From: Lysobacterales bacterium
GTDB taxonomy: Bacteria; Pseudomonadota; Gammaproteobacteria; Xanthomonadales; Xanthomonadaceae
DNA length: 64,000 nucleotides
NCBI GenBank assembly: GCA_019510125.1
Contig: JAEKKX010000003.1
Span: forward strand, 372,001 to 436,000
Reading direction: 5' to 3'
Translations under genes and position numbers: made by a program
Shown here: positions 21,342-29,314 of the stretch, piece by piece
Layout: each line of letters opens with the position of its first letter
How positions within the stretch are numbered: the first letter of the stretch is position 1
The notes under the pieces: generated by a model
Seen by the model: the letters and a program-made list of their open reading frames with translations, nothing else
The model's database searches: none
Told to the model about the DNA's origin: nothing

Positions 21342-21821
21342 TCAATCGTGATCGTGTCGTGCGATGGTCGAGGGCAGGCCGGTGTTGCGATGGAACTCGA
21401 AGATCAGGTGGGTCTGGATGTGGACGACTTCCGGCCGTTCGGTGAATGCGGCGAGCGCGAACTCGCGCAGGTGCGCGCTGTCGCGCACGCCGACGTGCAC
21501 GAGGAAATCGTCGGCGCCTGCGACGTGGTAGAAGGCCAGCACTTCCGGCAGCTCGCACAGGTGCGCGTGGAAGCCCTCGACCAGTCCGCGCGAATGCTGC
21601 TGCAGCCGCACCGCGACCAGCGCCTGCAGCCCGATCCCGATCGCCTCCGGCGCGATCTCGGCGTGGAACCCCAGGATCGCCTTCGATTCGCGCAGGCGCC
21701 GGATCCGTTCCAGCGCGGTCGAAGGCGCCACGCCCGCTTTCTCCGCGAGGTCCTTGTTCGGCAGCCGCGCGTTCTTCCGCAGCAGCCGCAGCAGGTCGAA
21801 GTCGATTCGGTCGAGCAGCAT
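21342..21821 (-). CDS. Lrp/AsnC-family transcriptional regulator
   Basis: 159 residues from the ATG at 21821 (an upstream in-frame ATG at 21872 would add 17 less typical residues). N-terminal HTH: MLLDRIDFDLLRLLRKNARL, DLAEKAGVAPSTALERIRRL. The C-terminal ligand-binding RAM domain (VEGFHAHLCELPEVLAFYHV, GADDFLVHV) follows. It is divergent from a PLP lyase acting on methionine or cystathionine, and in Pseudomonas putida an Lrp-type regulator (MdeR) controls methionine gamma-lyase in this same arrangement. Local control of that lyase is the natural inference. Confidence 0.9.
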   Translation of the reverse strand: MLLDRIDFDLLRLLRKNARLPNKDLAEKAGVAPSTALERIRRLRESKAILGFHAEIAPEAIGIGLQALVAVRLQQHSRGLVEGFHAHLCELPEVLAFYHVAGADDFLVHVGVRDSAHLREFALAAFTERPEVVHIQTHLIFEFHRNTGLPSTIARHDHD

Positions 21822-21844
21822 CGCCGGGCCTCGTCGCGAAATAA

Positions 21845-21902
21845 TATTCGGAATACAGTCTAGCAGGCGCATGAGGTTTCACGGATCGGCCATGATTCCG
21901 AA
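21845..21902. promoter_or_regulatory. Inverted pair of TTCGGAAT motifs between lrp-like gene and lyase
   Basis: TTCGGAAT occurs on the + strand at 21847-21854, within the palindrome TATTC-G-GAATA (21845-21855), and on the minus strand at 21895-21902, within GATTC-cgaac-GAATC (21894-21908). Both are in the 104-base divergent promoter region. Candidate binding sites of the adjacent regulator. Confidence 0.45.
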
Positions 21903-21925
21903 CGAATCCGCCGCGAGGAGCCGCC

Positions 21926-23140
21926 ATGGCCGCCACCGATCCGACCCGCACCGAGACCCTGGCCGTCCATGCCGGCCGCGAGGATTTCGTCGAGCTCGGC
22001 GTCCATGCGCCGCCGATCGACCTGTCCAGCACCTATCCCGTGCGCGACCTGGACATCGGCACCGCCAGCTTCGACGCGCTGGTCGCCGGCGACGCCGCGG
22101 CCGCCAATCCGGTCTACGCCCGCCTGCACAACCCGACCGTCGCCCGGGTCGAGCGCGCGCTGGCCACGCTGGAAGGCACCGAGGCCTGCGTCGCCTACGC
22201 CTCGGGCATGGCCGCGATCACCGCGCTGCTGCTCGCCAGCCGCGCGCGCGGCGCGCACGTGCTGGTGGTGCGGCCGCTGTACGGCACCTCGGACCACCTG
22301 TTCGCGAGCGGCCTGGCCGGGCTCGAAGCGCAGTTCGTCGAAGCGCACGAGATCGCCGCGCATCGCCGCCCCGACACCGCCCTGGTCTTCATCGAAACCC
22401 CGGCCAATCCCACCCTGGACCTCGTCGACATCCGCGCCGTGGTCGCGGCCGCCGGCGACGTGCCGGTGGCGGTCGACTCGACCTTCGCAACGCCCATCCT
22501 GCAGCGTCCGTCCGAACTCGGCGCGACCTACGTCGTCCACAGCGCGACCAAGTTCCTCGGCGGCCACGGTGACGTCGTCGCCGGCATCGTGTGCTGCCCG
22601 GAGGCGGACGCGAAGGCCTTGCGCCAGGTGCGCGCCGCGACCGGCGGATTGCTGCACCCGCTCGCGGCCTATCTGCTGCATCGCGGCCTGCCGACGCTGG
22701 CGCTGCGGGTCGAACGCGCGCAGGCCAGCGCGATCGAACTCGCGCGTCGCCTCGCCCGGCATCCCGCCGTCGCCCGGGTGTGCTTCCCCGGCCTCGGCAC
22801 CGTGCGCGGCGCGCACCTGCACACCACGCAGATGCGCGGACCGGGCACGCTGATCGCCTTCGAGGTGCGCGGCGGCCACGACGCGGCCGCCGCGGTGATG
22901 CGCCACGTCGCGCTGCTGACGCCGGCGGTGAGCCTGGGCTCGGTCGATACGCTGATCCAGCATCCGGCGGGGCTCACCCACCGCGTGCTCGACGACGCCA
23001 CCCGCGAGCGCTGCGGCATCACCCCGGGCCTGTTGCGGCTGTCGGTCGGCATCGAACACGTCGAAGACCTCTGGGCGGACCTCGCCCAGGCGCTGGCGGC
23101 GACCGACGACGGCTCAGGCCGCCTGCGCGACGCCGCCTGA
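21926..23140 (+). CDS. PLP-dependent Cys/Met metabolism enzyme (methionine gamma-lyase or cystathionine lyase type)
   Basis: 404 residues of the Cys/Met gamma-family. The PLP lysine is K209 in HSATKFLGGHGD; AYASGMAAI and the aspartate in VDSTFATPILQRP are also typical. At the active-site loop it reads PLYGTS (Y119, T121), where methionine gamma-lyase of Pseudomonas putida has Tyr114 and Cys116 (PLYGCT). The Thr therefore argues against a classical MGL and leaves cystathionine gamma-lyase/synthase or an MGL-like enzyme open. Length and fold are normal. The divergent Lrp-type regulator favours a catabolic role. Confidence 0.85.
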   Translation: MAATDPTRTETLAVHAGREDFVELGVHAPPIDLSSTYPVRDLDIGTASFDALVAGDAAAANPVYARLHNPTVARVERALATLEGTEACVAYASGMAAITALLLASRARGAHVLVVRPLYGTSDHLFASGLAGLEAQFVEAHEIAAHRRPDTALVFIETPANPTLDLVDIRAVVAAAGDVPVAVDSTFATPILQRPSELGATYVVHSATKFLGGHGDVVAGIVCCPEADAKALRQVRAATGGLLHPLAAYLLHRGLPTLALRVERAQASAIELARRLARHPAVARVCFPGLGTVRGAHLHTTQMRGPGTLIAFEVRGGHDAAAAVMRHVALLTPAVSLGSVDTLIQHPAGLTHRVLDDATRERCGITPGLLRLSVGIEHVEDLWADLAQALAATDDGSGRLRDAA

Positions 23141-23171: not shown

Positions 23172-26100
23172 TCAGGCGTCGGCGACGATCACGTCGAACT
23201 CGCCGGCCATCACCCGGTCGTAGCGGCCCGTGCGCCAGCCGCGGACGCTATCGCGTACCAGCGGCGAGGGCTCGGCGCGATAGCGCCGGGCGATGCGTGG
23301 ATCGTCGTCGTGGCCGAGGCGGACCGGGCGCGCGCGACCGGGCGCGTCGGGAGCGACGCGCACGGCGACGGCGACGCGACGGGTAGCGCCATCGCTGCCG
23401 TCGAATTCGGACTGGTGCAGGCCCTGTTCGCCCTCGAGCAGCGCCAGCGCGCCGAATCCGCCGACCGCCAGCCGCGCGAAGCCGCGTTCGGCGTCCTGTT
23501 CGAGCACTTCGACGCGCATGTTGCGGCGCTCGGCCCAGGCCATGTACATCGCGAGCAGGCGCTGCCACCACAGCCGGGTCTGCGCGGGATCGCGCCTGAG
23601 GTCGGCCTCGCCGGCGACCAGCCACAGCAGGGCGTCCTGCGGGCGCTGCTGCGACACCGCGCCGATCGCCATCCGCAGCAGCCACAGCAACTGCGCGTGG
23701 CGGGCGACGAAACCGGCGTCGGCGCCGTCGCGGCCCAGGCGCTCGTCGAGCCGCTGCGCGCTTTCGAACGCGCCTTCGATGCGATGCCGGCGCTCGATCC
23801 GGTCCAGCACCTCGAACCGCTCCGGGCGGGTCCAGAAATCGCGCGCGTCCATCGCCGCGTAGTCGGCGTCGCGGGCCTGCGTCCACGCGTCGGCGGAGAG
23901 GGCGTCGGCCACCGCGTCGAACTCGGCGCGCAGGGTGGCGATCGCCGCCGGCGATGCGTCCGGGGCGTAGAGCAGGCTGCGGATGTCGACGGCGTCGCCC
24001 GCTGCGCTCGGCGTGGCGGCCGGCGCGGGCGGGTTCGGATCGACGAACTCGACCTCCAGTCGATCGCCGGCGCTGCGCACGAACAGGAACTGGTCGCCCT
24101 GCGGCGTGCGGTGTTCGACGATGCTGCGCGCCAGCGGCGCGAGCAGGTGCTGCTCGATCGCGCGCCGCAGCGGGCGCGCACCGAGGTCGGGGGTGAAGCC
24201 GCGGTCGAGCAGGAATTCGATCGCCGACGGCTCCCATTCCACCGCCCAGTCCCGGTTGCGCAGGCCGCGGCGGGTCATCGCGCGCTGCAGTTCCTTGTGC
24301 AGGATTTCCCGCATGAGGGTGCGGTCGAGCGGGTGGAACAGCACGATCCGGTCGAGCCGGTTGAGGAATTCGCGGCGGAAGGTCTCGAACAGCGCCTTCT
24401 CCACCGCGCCGCGCGACCAGCCGCCGGCGGCCGAGGTGAAGCCCGGCCCGGCGCCGCGCGACAGGGTCGAACCGACGTTGCTGGTGAGGATCACGATGCT
24501 GTGGCGGAAGTCGGCGACGTTGCCGCTGCGGTCGCCGAGGCGGCCGTCGTCGAACACCTGCAGGAACAGGTCCCAGACCTTCGGATGCGCCTTCTCGAAC
24601 TCGTCCAGCAGCACCACCGAGAACGGCTGCTCGCGGATGCGCGCGACCAGCGAACGCGCGCTGCCGTCGCGCGAGACGTCGGTCAGCCGCCACGCGCTGT
24701 CCTCGGACTGGTATTCGCTCATGTCCAGCCGCAGCAGGCGCTCGGCGCTGCCGAACAGCAGTTCGCCCAGCGCCTTCGCCAGTTCGGTCTTGCCGGTGCC
24801 GGTGGGCCCGGCGAACAGGAACACGCCGATCGGCCGGCCCGGATCGACCAGGCCGGCCTTGAGCATCGCGATCCGGTCGACCAGGCATTCGACCGCCTCG
24901 TCCTGGCCGAGCACGCGCTTGCGGAAGAAACCGCGCAGGGCGTCGAGGTCGAGGCTCTGGCGATCGTCGATGACCTCCAGCGGCAGGCCGCTGCGCCGGG
25001 CGATGCCCTGCAGCAGCGCGTCGGCGGTCAGCGGCAGGCCGGGCGGCGCTTCGGCCAGCGCGGTGCGCAGGCTGTCGTCGAGCAGGCGCAGGCTGCGCCC
25101 GGGTTCGTGCTGGTCGGGGAAGAACTGCGCCGCCATGCGCCGGGCTTCGTCGAGGGTGCGCGCGTCGGCGACCGCGCCGCCGGTGGCGGCTTCGCGCGCG
25201 TCGCGCCAGCGCACCAGCAGGTCGCGCATTTCCTCGGCCGAGAGCGTCGGCAGCGCCAGCGCCTTGGTCAGGTGGCGCAGCGCCGGTCGCGCCAGCAGCA
25301 GTTGCGCGTGCTGCGCCGGGGTGAGTTCGCCGATCATGCGCAGCCGGCCGCGCTCCATCGCCGGCAGCAGCAGATCGAGCATGCCGCGCGGGTCCTGGTC
25401 GTGCGCGCCCTTGTGCAGCAGGTCGTGGAAATCCTGCACCCGCCACAGCGCCTTCGGCCGGTCGAGCGCGGCCAGCAGTTCGCGCATGCGCTCCTCGAGC
25501 TGGCCGATGTACTTCTGCCCGGCCAGCACGTCCGCAGCGGAGGCCTCGAACAGCAGCCAGCCCTCGTCTTGCAGCCGCGCGAACAGTCGATCGACCAGCG
25601 TCGTCTTGCCGGTGCCGCCGTCGCCGACCGCCAGCACCGATGCCGCCGGCGTCGCGTGGAGCAGCTCGTGCAGGCGCTCGACCTCGCGGGCCAGCACCGG
25701 GTAGTCGACGATGTCCGACGCGGCGTCGCCGGCCGCCGGCGTCCACAGCCGGCCGACGCCGCCGAGGGTGCGGTGCTCGTTGCGGCGCGCGGCCTCGGCC
25801 TCGACCTGGGCCACGTACGGGGCGAGGACCGGCGCCTGCAGCGATTTCAGGCCCTCGGACAACTGTTCGAGTTCGCGGTCGTCCAGGTCGGCCACCGCGA
25901 TCGGCGCAGCGCCGGGCGCGTGCGTTTCCGCCCACGCCAGGACTTCCTGCATCCGCTTGCGCAGCGCGGGCGCGTCCCACCACCACTTGCGCACGTGGCG
26001 CAGGAAGCCGGGCAGGGCGGACGCGTCGTCGCGGCTGCGCAGGTAGTCGAGCATGTACCAGGCCGGGTAGCGGCCGACGTTGGCGCTGGCGGCGAACGCG

Positions 26101-26546
26101 GCCTGCGCCGGGATGTCGTCGCGCGCCGGCAGCGCGGCGTAGATCATGCTCGCCAGCACGTAGCCGTCGCCTTCGAGCAGTTCCAGCACTTCGCGCGGCG
26201 CCAGCGCCGGTCCCGACAGCAGCGCCACGGCTTCGCGGAACTGCGCGAACCCGGCCAGGTCTTGCGGCCGCTGGATGCGTTCGTCCTCGGCCTCGATCTC
26301 GCGGCGCAGGCGGTGCAGGCGATCCGCGGACGGCTCCTGCGGCGGCGTCGGTACGGCGTCCGTCGCGGCATCGACCGACGGAGCGTCCGTCGTCGGCGCG
26401 TCGAGCGCCGGCGTGTCGGAGGCTTCCTCCGCGGGCGGGTCCGCGGTCGTGGCGGTGGCGGCGCCGGCGCCGCCGGGCGGACGGCGCAGCCACAGGGTCA
26501 GTACGACGCCGAACAGCAGGCCGGCGATGAAGGGGACGAGACTCAT
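23172..26546 (-). CDS. Membrane-anchored ClpA/B-like AAA+ ATPase fused to an RF2-like domain without GGQ
   Basis: 1124 residues from the ATG at 26546. Residues 4-20 form one membrane anchor; an acidic/Pro linker and a helical region follow. D1 has Walker A GDGGTGKTT (about 305-313) and AGQKYIGQLEER, but its Walker B position reads VQDFHDL where ClpB has IDEIHTL. D2 has GPTGTGKTE (about 578), VVLLDEFEKAHP and LTSNVGS, but lacks the aromatic GYVG pore loop (RLTDVSRDGSARS). From about 900 the protein follows release factor 2: AMDARDFWTRPERFEVLDRI (domain 1), LLAMYMAWAERRNMRVEVLE and EGEQGLHQSEFD (PCRF domain; RF2 has SPF where this has SEF), then directly the RF2-like end PLVRDSVRGWRTGRYDRVM. 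The GGQ domain is absent. Neither a Clp N-domain nor a ClpP-docking loop was seen. Function unknown; a ribosome-linked unfoldase is inferred. Confidence 0.85.
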   Translation of the reverse strand: MSLVPFIAGLLFGVVLTLWLRRPPGGAGAATATTADPPAEEASDTPALDAPTTDAPSVDAATDAVPTPPQEPSADRLHRLRREIEAEDERIQRPQDLAGFAQFREAVALLSGPALAPREVLELLEGDGYVLASMIYAALPARDDIPAQAAFAASANVGRYPAWYMLDYLRSRDDASALPGFLRHVRKWWWDAPALRKRMQEVLAWAETHAPGAAPIAVADLDDRELEQLSEGLKSLQAPVLAPYVAQVEAEAARRNEHRTLGGVGRLWTPAAGDAASDIVDYPVLAREVERLHELLHATPAASVLAVGDGGTGKTTLVDRLFARLQDEGWLLFEASAADVLAGQKYIGQLEERMRELLAALDRPKALWRVQDFHDLLHKGAHDQDPRGMLDLLLPAMERGRLRMIGELTPAQHAQLLLARPALRHLTKALALPTLSAEEMRDLLVRWRDAREAATGGAVADARTLDEARRMAAQFFPDQHEPGRSLRLLDDSLRTALAEAPPGLPLTADALLQGIARRSGLPLEVIDDRQSLDLDALRGFFRKRVLGQDEAVECLVDRIAMLKAGLVDPGRPIGVFLFAGPTGTGKTELAKALGELLFGSAERLLRLDMSEYQSEDSAWRLTDVSRDGSARSLVARIREQPFSVVLLDEFEKAHPKVWDLFLQVFDDGRLGDRSGNVADFRHSIVILTSNVGSTLSRGAGPGFTSAAGGWSRGAVEKALFETFRREFLNRLDRIVLFHPLDRTLMREILHKELQRAMTRRGLRNRDWAVEWEPSAIEFLLDRGFTPDLGARPLRRAIEQHLLAPLARSIVEHRTPQGDQFLFVRSAGDRLEVEFVDPNPPAPAATPSAAGDAVDIRSLLYAPDASPAAIATLRAEFDAVADALSADAWTQARDADYAAMDARDFWTRPERFEVLDRIERRHRIEGAFESAQRLDERLGRDGADAGFVARHAQLLWLLRMAIGAVSQQRPQDALLWLVAGEADLRRDPAQTRLWWQRLLAMYMAWAERRNMRVEVLEQDAERGFARLAVGGFGALALLEGEQGLHQSEFDGSDGATRRVAVAVRVAPDAPGRARPVRLGHDDDPRIARRYRAEPSPLVRDSVRGWRTGRYDRVMAGEFDVIVADA

Positions 26547-26743: not shown

Positions 26744-29314
26744 TCACTCCAGTGCTTTCAGCCGGTACAGCGCCTCCAGCGCTTGCTTGGGCGTGAGCTC
26801 GTCCGGGTCGATGCCGGCGAGGGCGTCCAGCGCGGCCGACGACGGCGCGAACAGGCCGAACTGCTGCGGGCCGTCGAGCGCCTGCGCGGTGAGCACCGGC
26901 GCGGGATCGCTGCGGCGCTGTTCGAGTTCGGCCAGCCGGCCGCGGGCCTCGCGCACCACCGCCTTCGGCAGGCCGGCGAGGGCCGCCACCTGCAGGCCGA
27001 AGCTGCGGTCGGCGGGGCCGTCCTTGACCGCGTGCATGAACACCAGCGAATCCCCGTGCTCGACGGCGTCGAGGTGCACGTTGGCGATGCCGCTGCCGGG
27101 CTGCGCCAGCGCGGTCAGCTCGAAGTAGTGGGTGGCGAACAGGGTGTAGCAGCGGTTCGCGTTCGCCAGGTGCCGGGCGCAGGCCTCGGCCAGCGCGAGG
27201 CCGTCGTAGGTCGAGGTGCCGCGGCCGATCTCGTCCATCAGCACCAGCGACTGCGACGTGGCGTGGTGCAGGATGTAGCTGGTCTCGCTCATCTCGACCA
27301 TGAAGGTCGACTGGCCGCGGGCGAGGTCGTCGCCGGCGCCGATGCGGGTGAGGATGCGGTCGATCGGGCCGAGCTCGGCCCGCGACGCGGGCACGAAGCT
27401 GCCGATGTGCGCGAGCAGCACGATCAGCGCGTTCTGGCGCATGTAGGTCGATTTGCCGCCCATGTTCGGGCCGGTGATCACCAGCATGCGGCGGTCGGCG
27501 TGCAGGTCGAGGTCGTTGGGCTCGAACGGATCGTCGCGCACCGCCTCCACCACCGGATGGCGCCCGCGCTCGATGCGCAGCACCGCGTCCTCGACCAGCC
27601 GCGGCCGCGACCAGTCGAGCTCGCGCGCGCGGTCGGCGAAGCACACCAGCACGTCGAGTTCGCTCAGCGCCGCGGCGCAGCGCTTCAGCGGTTCGAGGTG
27701 GACGTTGAGTTCGTCCAGGACCTGCTCGTACAGCAGCTTCTCGCGCGACAGCGCGCGCTCGCGCGCCGACAGCACCTTGTCCTCGAACGCCTTGAGCTCC
27801 TCGGTGATGTAGCGCTCGGCGCCGGTCAGCGTCTGCCGGCGGGTGTAGTGGACCGGCGCCTTGTCGGCCTGGCCCTTGCTGATCTCGATGTAGTAGCCGT
27901 GGACGCGGTTGTAGCCGACCTTCAGGGTCGCGATGCCGCTGCTTTCGCGCTCGCGGGCTTCGAGGTCGATCAGGAACTGGTCGGCGTTCGTGCTGAGCTG
28001 GCGCAGTTCGTCGAGTTCGGCGTCGTAACCTTCCGCGATCACGCCGCCGTCGCGGGCGAGCAGCGGCGGCTGCGGCACGATCGCGCGCTGCAGCCACGCG
28101 GCCTGCGCGTCGTGTTCCCCGAGTTCGGCGACCAGCGCCAGCAGCCGCGGCGAATCGATCCCGTCCAGCGCGGCGCGCACCTGCGGCAGCAGCGCCAGCG
28201 CGTCGCGCAAGGTCGACAGGTCGCGCGGGCGCGCGCTGCGCAGGGCCACGCGCGAAAGGATGCGTTCGACGTCGCCGAGGCCGCGGAACGCCTCGCGCAC
28301 GTCACTGTCGGCGCGGGTGTCGAGCAGGCGCTCCACCGCGTCGTGGCGTTCGCCGACGACGCGGCGGTCGCGCAGCGGGCGGTGCAGCCAGCGCCGCAGC
28401 AGGCGGCCGCCCATCGGCGTGATCGTGGTGTCGAGCACGCCCAGCAGCGTGTGCCGGGTATCGCCGTCGATGCGGGTGTCGAGTTCGAGGTGGCGGCGGG
28501 TCGCGGCGTTCATCGCGATCGCGCCGTCGCTGGTCTCGACCCGGATCGAGGTCAGGTGCGGCAGCCGCTGCTTCTGGGTTTCCTCGACGTAGCCCAGCAG
28601 CGCGCCGGCGGCGGCGATCGCGAGCGGCTTGTCCTCGATGCCGAAGCCGGTGAGGTCGTGCAGGTCGAAGAAGCGCAGCAGCAGACGATGTCCGCTGTCG
28701 GGGTCGAACAGCCACGGCGCGCGCCGGCGGACGCCGCCGCGATCGACGACGAAGGCCGGCCAGCCGTCCTCGTCGGGCACCAGCAGTTCGGCCGGATCGA
28801 GGCGCGCCAGTTCGGCGTCGAGCTGGTCGTCGTTGGCGATCTCGTTGACCAGGAAGCGGCCGCCGGCGAGATCCGCCCACGCCAGGCCGTATCCCGACTT
28901 GCCGCGCGCGACCGCCATCAGCAGCGTGTCGCGTCGATCCTGCAGCAGCGCCTCGTCGGTGACCGTGCCCGGGGTGACGATCCGCACCACCTTGCGTTCG
29001 ACCAGGCCCTTCGCCAGCGCCGGGTCGCCGATCTGTTCGCAGATCGCCACCGATTCGCCCAGCGCCACCAGCCGCGCGAGGTAGCCCTCGTAGGCATGCA
29101 CCGGCACCCCGGCCATCGGGATCGGCTGGCCGGCGGACGCGCCGCGCTGGGTCAGGGTGATGTCGAGCAGCCGCGCGGCCTTGCGCGCGTCGTCGTAGAA
29201 CAGTTCGTAGAAGTCGCCCATCCGGAAGAACAGCAGCACGTCCGGATGCTCCGCCTTGGCGGCGAAGAACTGACGCATCAACGGGGTGTGTTCCTGCGGG
29301 GACTGGGGCTTCAT
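26744..29314 (-). CDS. mutS: DNA mismatch repair protein MutS
   Basis: 856-residue mismatch sensor. The mismatch-reading Phe-x-Glu motif lies in [20 protein letters not shown], followed by connector and lever domains. The ATPase P-loop [13 protein letters not shown] and [18 protein letters not shown] (Walker B) are intact. The C-terminal stretch [20 protein letters not shown] matches the family ending. Full length. It is encoded upstream of, and in the same direction as, the ATPase-RF2 fusion, with a 197-base gap in which no other gene or clear terminator was seen. Confidence 0.98.

Follow-up and report, generated by a model that had tools for sequence, protein, structure and literature searches.

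According to section 2.4 of a survey of release-factor (RF) diversity, the bacterial RF-type variants are RF1, RF2, ArfB and PrfH (PMC6514570). PrfH is an RF-like factor that lacks the GTPase-interacting domain and acts on damaged ribosomes (passages of PMC9223846), and Dom34 is described as an inactive release-factor paralogue (passages of PMC6514570). The term "clpb" is absent from the main text of the survey, and the AAA+ passages in the part of it considered here concern CDC48 or partners (PMC6514570). Among Clp-type proteins, an LGF loop separates ClpC from ClpB (passages of PMC10149685). In the stretch of DNA analyzed here (the window; 64,000 nucleotides of contig JAEKKX010000003.1 from a Lysobacterales bacterium), one gene encodes a protein in which the fold of translation termination is joined to a molecular motor, with a predicted membrane anchor, two AAA+ modules (D1 and D2) and an RF2-like C-terminal arm. 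An initial annotation had proposed this fusion and had stated that no such system was known to it. No description of the architecture was found in open PubMed Central (PMC) texts either (subscription journals and preprints were outside this search), and these texts yielded no known system in which an AAA+ motor is joined with the fold of a class-I release factor.

The candidate is real and is one intact protein of 1124 amino acids. Its frame runs uninterrupted on the minus strand from an ATG at 26546 to a stop at 23172, and the single polypeptide holds both AAA+ domains that had been read from it; on the whole protein, Pfam places AAA at residues 304-401 (1.3e-14), AAA_2 at 571-733 (6e-37), ClpB_D2-small at 740-819 (6.8e-16) and PCRF at 991-1045 (8.9e-5). 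The gene has no internal stops in any of the 11 searched genomes of the genus (the window's included; 39 genomes were searched), and all 11 matches extend unbroken from residues 1-35 to residues 1120-1124. A frame error or pseudogene was therefore rejected.

Relatives were collected by a peptide-pattern scan of species genomes, which matched 200 stretches, 83 of them relatives, 80 of which were kept; both scan patterns lie within domain 4 of the arm. The kept relatives come mostly from metagenome-assembled genomes (MAGs) and about a dozen phyla, with taxa taken from record titles, and MAG labels can be wrong. The titles name Lysobacter, Xanthomonas, Luteimonas, Pseudoxanthomonas, Rudaea and Tahibacter as well as Acidobacteria, Planctomycetota, Calditrichia, Gemmatimonadetes, Eisenbacteria, Krumholzibacteriota, Latescibacterota, Desulfobacterales, Rokuibacteriota, Schekmanbacteria, Thermoleophilia and Rhodospirillales, among others. 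A D2 Walker A motif precedes the RF-like part in 70 of the 71 open reading frames (ORFs) intact at the 5' end, the exception (L121) having a broken frame, and both Walker A motifs are present by a strict pattern in 63 of the 71. Three members from another phylum sample (L189-L191), found by profile and not by the patterns, carry both Walker A motifs and [LI]GF and have no GYVG; all three lack SPF in the arm and have the domain 4 tail. Within the order Lysobacterales, a profile of the C-terminus matched 15 of 299 genomes (E<1e-60; own genome included). The counts given below refer to a 70-row and a 56-row full-length set (the window plus 69 and 55 of the 80 loci, respectively) and to a 63-row arm set (the window plus 62 loci), from which nine 5'-cut ORFs, two short ORFs, one broken frame, one locus with masked bases, one repeat of an already used genome and four near-copies were omitted.

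Judged from these sequences, the fusion is a scattered family of bacterial proteins with one architecture, so the absence of homologues that the initial annotation had coupled with a frame error did not materialize. None of the 25 listed NCBIfam models, among 45 matched, reached its cut-off (e.g., ClpB with 290 of 1232 bits, ClpA with 272 of 993 and prfB with 22.6 of 370). The family fails tests that define its two parents, release factors and Clp unfoldases, and yet a single architecture is shared by Lysobacter and by records labeled Acidobacteria, Planctomycetes, Calditrichia and others; it therefore looks like a real, selected protein class.

Profile and predicted model assign the arm to an RF1/RF2-type fold with domains 1, 2 and 4, in which the GGQ domain is missing and codon-reading residues have been replaced. 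The C-terminus alone matches PCRF at 1.5e-5 (25.3 bits, above the gathering score), and PCRF is matched by 12 of 12 rows (window included; best 2.7e-8). Searched against the PDB, the 63-row profile found 41 sequences at E<=1, all of them RF1, RF2 or mitochondrial RF, with an RF2 as the best match (1.1e-18); the match spans domains 1 and 2, and the RF2 C-terminal end was matched separately and weakly (11.9 bits). A 12-row profile gave 27 matches at E<=10, i.e., 26 release factors and one designed filament (0.17). The AlphaFold model of the arm alone reached a predicted local distance difference test score (pLDDT) of 94.2 and a predicted template modeling score (pTM) of 0.89, and the 50 Foldseek matches listed for it at E<=0.001 are all RF1, RF2 or mitochondrial RF chains, judged by their titles and the PDB profile matches; structure prediction, which could have revealed an unrelated fold, thus sided with the initial annotation.

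The conserved His and the R-x-Y of the arm are separated by 33-61 residues in 60 of 63 rows (three were not measured), as against 125-126 residues in 30 of 30 RF1 and RF2 sequences, and domain 3 with its GGQ motif is therefore gone, as had been proposed; two GGQ strings occur elsewhere in the arm, not at domain 3. The F and W of the DFW motif in domain 1 are invariant in the 63 rows. Out of 27 columns that are at least 90% conserved over 15 RF1 and 15 RF2 sequences, the arm keeps 12 and loses 15. Among the lost columns are G-x-G-G, with which helix 5 begins, the two Arg of HRxxR, the Thr and Ser of HTS and, in domain 4, the Arg of D-x-R. In a tree that took 33 of 34 chosen fusions (L135, which has no RRY, was dropped), the fusions form one clade with a support of 100 on a branch between RF1 and RF2, and this branch is long (1.49), which makes the placement of the arm weak. 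The arm consensus is identical to RF2 at 71 of 224 positions and to RF1 at 53 of 224, so descent from RF2 is likely, not proven.

An artefact such as a frame error or pseudogene, or a chance resemblance to release factors, could be argued from the single-sequence PCRF score of the whole protein, which at 22.8 bits is slightly below the Pfam gathering score of 24. This explanation is hardly credible against the unbroken frames in the genus, the PCRF match in every one of the 12 rows, the joint presence of AAA+ and arm in 70 of 71 ORFs, the PDB profile matches to release factors throughout and the confident arm model.

The motor half carries a complete ATPase signature in D2, in keeping with the motor initially proposed: the Walker B D and E, an Arg-finger-type N-R-x-D and GAR are found in 56 of 56 rows. 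D1 has the Walker A Lys in 54 of 56 rows and an aromatic pore loop also in 54 (Y in 39, F in 15). Its Walker B is changed as had been noticed, the Asp position being D in 1 of 56 rows (P in 45, Q in 7) and the Glu position being E in 5. The aromatic pore loop missing from D2 in the initial annotation is likewise missing throughout the family, with GYVG in 0 of 56 rows and a loop that is shortened beside the genome's own ClpA and ClpB. ATP hydrolysis would be expected in D2 only, with D2 lacking an aromatic grip on the substrate. Since no row has this loop in D2, ordinary threading and unfolding, carried over from ClpA and ClpB in the initial annotation, are doubtful.

The membrane tether is supported by a predicted N-terminal helix in 60 of 70 rows (hydropathy threshold 1.6), and the RR directly after this helix suggests a cytoplasmic C-terminus. 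The helical N-domain is HEAT-like: a 48-row profile of it matches alphaRep proteins (best 1.8e-11), which are HEAT-type repeats. The AlphaFold model of the full protein, built on the 56-row alignment, has a pLDDT of 85.8 and a pTM of 0.61; residues up to 69 and a linker at 841-851 are of low confidence, and the RF-like part follows this linker.

Taking these features together, we tentatively favor, although with rather less than even confidence, a membrane motor whose RF-like arms place it at ribosomes in a non-catalytic use of the release-factor fold. The fusion protein would form a hexamer at the cytoplasmic membrane, with D2 as the working ATPase and with D1 binding ATP without hydrolysis and holding the only aromatic pore loops. 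Six RF-like arms on the D2 face distal to the membrane would position the ring at the A site of ribosomes or at their factor-binding entrance, and would neither read codons nor hydrolyze peptidyl-tRNA. Dom34/Pelota, an inactive member of a release-factor superfamily of its own, is a precedent for this, and PrfH, with its action on damaged ribosomes (passages of PMC9223846), is another. With ATP turnover in D2, a ribosome-bound partner would then be displaced, remodeled or held at the membrane. Sequence and model show the anatomy; the hexamer and its orientation, the binding to ribosomes, the use of ATP and the client are inferred.

The case for ribosome docking draws on the retained fold, as modeled, and on the conservation of domain 4; because both remain, contact with the ribosome is possible. 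In 12 rows that were not selected by the domain 4 patterns, conservation was 0.928 in domain 4, 0.927 in D2 and 0.944 in the D2 small domain, and 0.809 in D1, 0.814 in arm domain 2, 0.766 in arm domain 1 and 0.738 in the N-domain. In 20 arm rows, also without pattern selection, domain 4 scored 0.867 vs 0.637 for domain 1 and 0.677 for domain 2. The 0.807 of domain 4 in 56 pattern-selected rows is inflated because both scan patterns lie in it (0.689 and 0.822 outside the two patterns), and a score of 1.0 for residues 23-72 in the 56 rows is an artefact of row trimming. In these alignments no other part of the arm is as well conserved as domain 4, which is about level with D2 and holds conserved arginines not found in sampled RF2. 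Its conservation suggests a retained partner and not drift, and, with the arginines, seems to be the best pointer to a conserved partner, either on the ribosome or on D2.

The same scores bear on another proposal, in which the arm is a release-factor mimic that competes for or captures RF2 partners (RF3, the L11 stalk) and so tunes termination near the membrane. RF2 domain 1 contacts the L11 stalk (passages of PMC5378476) and the RF2-type DFW motif is kept in domain 1 of the arm, as a mimic would have it. However, in both the 12 and the 20 rows domain 1 has the lowest conservation within the arm, and we consider this proposal very unlikely.

Several results weigh against the favored reading, and the chief of them concern codon reading. 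E. coli RF1 contacts the codon through Gly120, Glu123, Gln185, Thr190, His197 and Thr198, and changing its Arg186 inhibits ribosome binding (passages of PMC3974865); in the RF1 loop of the window's own genome, Gln185 is His+3 and Arg186 is His+4. In the arm, His+3 is E in 59 and D in 4 of 63 rows and His+4 is variable. The SPF tripeptide is found in 0 of 63 rows and a P-x-T string in 2, a GGxE-type string at the start of helix 5 is found in 1 of 62 rows, and in the HTS strand the Thr is replaced by Arg in 91% of 33 rows and the Ser is not retained. The tested codon contacts being lost, the arm is unable to read stop codons in the manner of RF1 and RF2, and, the Arg at His+4 being lost as well, an RF2-style contact with the decoding center cannot be transferred to it. 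The initial annotation had set the SEF of the window's protein against SPF; this SEF occupies His+2 to His+4, three positions at which most other rows have L/F/Y-E-x, and thus precedes the place of SPF; it was rejected as an SPF equivalent. The A-site docking proposed there is unsupported as stated; on the sequences it is possible, unproven. Moreover, the Trp319 switch loop, through which RF2 contacts the decoding center (passages of PMC5378476), is absent from the shortened stretch of the arm. Superposition of the arm on release factors is moderate (template modeling score by query 0.29-0.53, root-mean-square deviation 4.9-26.5 A among the 50 listed matches), which would be expected with a missing domain and a moved domain 1 and is no proof of an identical arrangement. 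Across the 49 loci outside Lysobacterales there was no common neighbor family and no conserved translation-linked neighbor. Finally, the distribution is patchy, the C-terminal profile matching 3 of 398 genomes in a sample of the phylum (E<=1e-20; all three Lysobacterales) and 4 of 199 genomes in the phylum of an acidobacterial relative.

The loss of the testable codon-contacting residues while core residues stay, the neighborhoods free of a link to translation genes and the domain 4 arginines, which fit a new partner or a contact with D2, would also suit a membrane AAA+ remodeler of a non-ribosomal client, in which the release-factor fold is kept merely as a protein-binding or self-assembly module and the HEAT-like domain and the arm bind the client or a partner. 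This account is nearly as likely as the one favored here; against it, a generic scaffold would hardly need the domain 1/2/4 fold to be kept whole in different phyla. If the arm does bind ribosomes, the fusion would represent a new route of membrane-linked ribosome control, and if it does not, a release-factor fold would have been recruited outside translation, which would also be surprising.

A further explanation arises from the GF tripeptide of D2. At the position of the ClpA IGF, [LIV]GF is found in 37 of 37 non-Lysobacterales rows, and the three profile-found members agree; in 54 of 56 rows it follows TSN-x-G at a distance of 8 residues, with the same spacing in the genome's own ClpA, and its own ClpB has no such tripeptide. 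Taking into consideration that the LGF loop tells ClpC from ClpB (passages of PMC10149685) and that ClpP is present in the own genome, the protein could be a membrane-tethered ClpP partner, in which ClpP docks at [LIV]GF and is fed by the pore loops of D1, while clients, perhaps chains on stalled ribosomes, are chosen by the RF-like arm. Against this, all 19 Lysobacterales rows, the window included, have PGF (16), MGF (2) or AGF (1) and none has [LIV]GF, D2 has no pore loop in any of 56 rows and D1 has no Walker B pair. The GF motif may moreover be a structural feature of an AAA clade and not a sign of ClpP partnership, since three other AAA+ proteins, described below, share it as [MLI]GF. A ClpP partnership is therefore unlikely. 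More improbable still is the combined case, in which a hexameric Clp-type ATPase anchored in the membrane contacts ribosomes with six inactivated RF arms, without codon reading or peptide release, and, outside Lysobacterales, hands extracted material to ClpP; if true, this would be an undescribed bacterial pathway of ribosome-linked proteolysis at the membrane. The restriction of PGF, MGF and AGF to Lysobacterales looks as if a docking function had been lost there.

The three other AAA+ proteins, all of the Clp-type double AAA+ kind, are encoded in tandem in one gene cluster (L141:46-14360, G032:C8) together with a DUF3686 ATPase and a GDSL-type hydrolase, with an ORF nearby judged by eye to be protein-kinase-like. 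All three have no GYVG in D2 and look like relatives of the motor half of the fusion. RF-like C-termini were considered for two of them and rejected (hhalign probability 1.2 and 6.2).

The fusion accompanies RF1 and RF2 and does not take their place. When fusion-bearing genomes from outside Lysobacterales were chosen for this question, the C-terminal profile found in 14 of 14 exactly three proteins, i.e., the fusion and two open frames of 344-492 amino acids, whose codon-reading loops are one of RF1 type and one of RF2 type; the own genome has a prfB above the cut-off and an RF1-type protein. A role as RF2 replacement was rejected on these grounds. In one further locus (L153, G000:C44:164446-164709), a 269-amino-acid frame has a short match to prfB positions 221-283 and is possibly ArfB-like.

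The fusion gene looks like a stand-alone chromosomal gene. It has mutS upstream of it, in the same orientation, in the window (mutS at 26747-29314) and at 24 of 31 Lysobacterales-type loci, but at 0 of the 49 others; the gap to mutS is 1.5-2.2 kb in three loci (L071, L075 and L076), and some of the seven Lysobacterales-type loci without mutS have little upstream sequence. A shared operon outside Lysobacterales was rejected, the largest neighbor cluster without Lysobacterales covering 7 of 49 loci. Pfam tallies of 37 of 38 same-strand near neighbors and 114 of 125 other neighbors gave no family in more than three, and RtcB was not among the neighbor families listed (25 of 62 and 25 of 161). Among 72,556 plasmid and 50,697 phage records, none matched the window arm at E<=1e-5, and 0 of 62 pattern stretches in viral contigs encode a relative, although distant relatives could be missed in both searches; plasmid or phage carriage was rejected at this sensitivity. 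A defense system was also rejected, the PADLOC matches (best DolB at 2.3e-25 and PDC-M37B at 2e-23) covering the AAA+ D2 region only. On the other side of the gene, at window positions 21345-23137, an AsnC/Lrp-type regulator is divergent from a Cys/Met-metabolism pyridoxal phosphate enzyme, which is convergent with the fusion gene. The coordinates of the gene and of its parts are collected in Table 1.

Table 1. Parts of the fusion gene, in window coordinates; residues are those of the encoded protein.
Feature	Coordinates	Strand	Basis
Whole gene, 1124-aa AAA+/RF2-like fusion protein with membrane anchor	23172..26546	-	ORF; 11/11 genus genomes; 12-row alignment
Predicted N-terminal transmembrane helix, residues 2-21	26484..26543	-	Hydropathy 2.24 over 19 residues
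Helical HEAT-like N-domain, residues 73-264	25755..26330	-	AlphaFold all-helical, block pLDDT 86-97; alphaRep profile match
AAA+ module D1, residues 283-505	25032..25700	-	Pfam AAA 304-401; model
D1 pore-loop-type segment GQKYIGQLEER, residues 343-353, aromatic present	25488..25520	-	Y 39 or F 15 of 56 rows
D1 Walker B position, residues 366-373, acidic pair lost	25428..25451	-	56-row counts
AAA+ module D2, residues 508-735, ATPase site intact	24342..25025	-	Signature motifs 56/56
D2 segment at the ClpA/ClpB GYVG pore-loop place, residues 613-636, shortened, without such an aromatic	24639..24710	-	GYVG 0/56
PGF tripeptide at the ClpA position for ClpP docking, residues 701-703	24438..24446	-	G and F 56/56
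D2 small domain, residues 740-836	24039..24329	-	Pfam ClpB_D2-small 6.8e-16
RF2-like domain 1, helical, residues 855-968, with DFW motif	23643..23984	-	RF2 profile match; model
RF2-like domain 2 / PCRF core, residues 969-1070	23337..23642	-	PCRF 1.5e-5; PDB profile 1.1e-18
Place of the stop-codon-reading loop, residues ~1045-1056, rebuilt	23379..23414	-	SPF 0/63; His+3 acidic in all rows
RF2-like domain 4, residues 1084-1118	23193..23297	-	Aligns with RF2 C-terminus; best conserved part of arm

Compared with known systems, the motor half resembles ClpA, ClpC and ClpB in its two AAA+ modules, its D2 small domain and the GF at the ClpA position, and the 50 matches listed by Foldseek for the full model are ClpC, ClpB and ClpA entries. 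It differs from all three in having no aromatic pore loop in D2 and no Walker B pair in D1 and in carrying the N-terminal membrane helix, the HEAT-like domain and the RF-like arm; it is far below the equivalog cut-offs of ClpA and ClpB. Its GF tripeptide is absent from the genome's own ClpB, and the secondary-structure string of the model has no long coiled coil in D1 that would correspond to the ClpB M-domain. The tandem proteins of L141 share with it the Clp-type double AAA+ arrangement, the lack of GYVG in D2 and the [MLI]GF, whereas the two C-termini tested there are not recognizably RF-like and the third protein is shorter. Dom34/Pelota is similar in principle only, being an RF-superfamily paralogue that lacks the catalytic glutamine and acts together with a nucleotide-driven partner (passages of PMC6514570), but it belongs to another, structurally unrelated release-factor superfamily, its partner is a GTPase and it has no AAA+ fusion. 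With RF2 (prfB, TIGR00020; PCRF, PF03462) the arm shares domains 1, 2 and 4 by profile and model, as well as the DFW, MY..W, G.H and R.Y positions and the D-G-D of domain 4; it differs in having no GGQ domain, no SPF and no GGxE, in the replaced T and S of HTS, in the fused AAA+ modules and in its prfB score, which at 22.6 bits is well short of the cut-off of 370. The rescue factor PrfH (RFH) is, like the arm, an RF1/RF2 paralogue outside ordinary termination (passages of PMC9223846 and PMC6514570), but PrfH keeps the GGQ and has no domain 1, and the arm of the fusion is the reverse.

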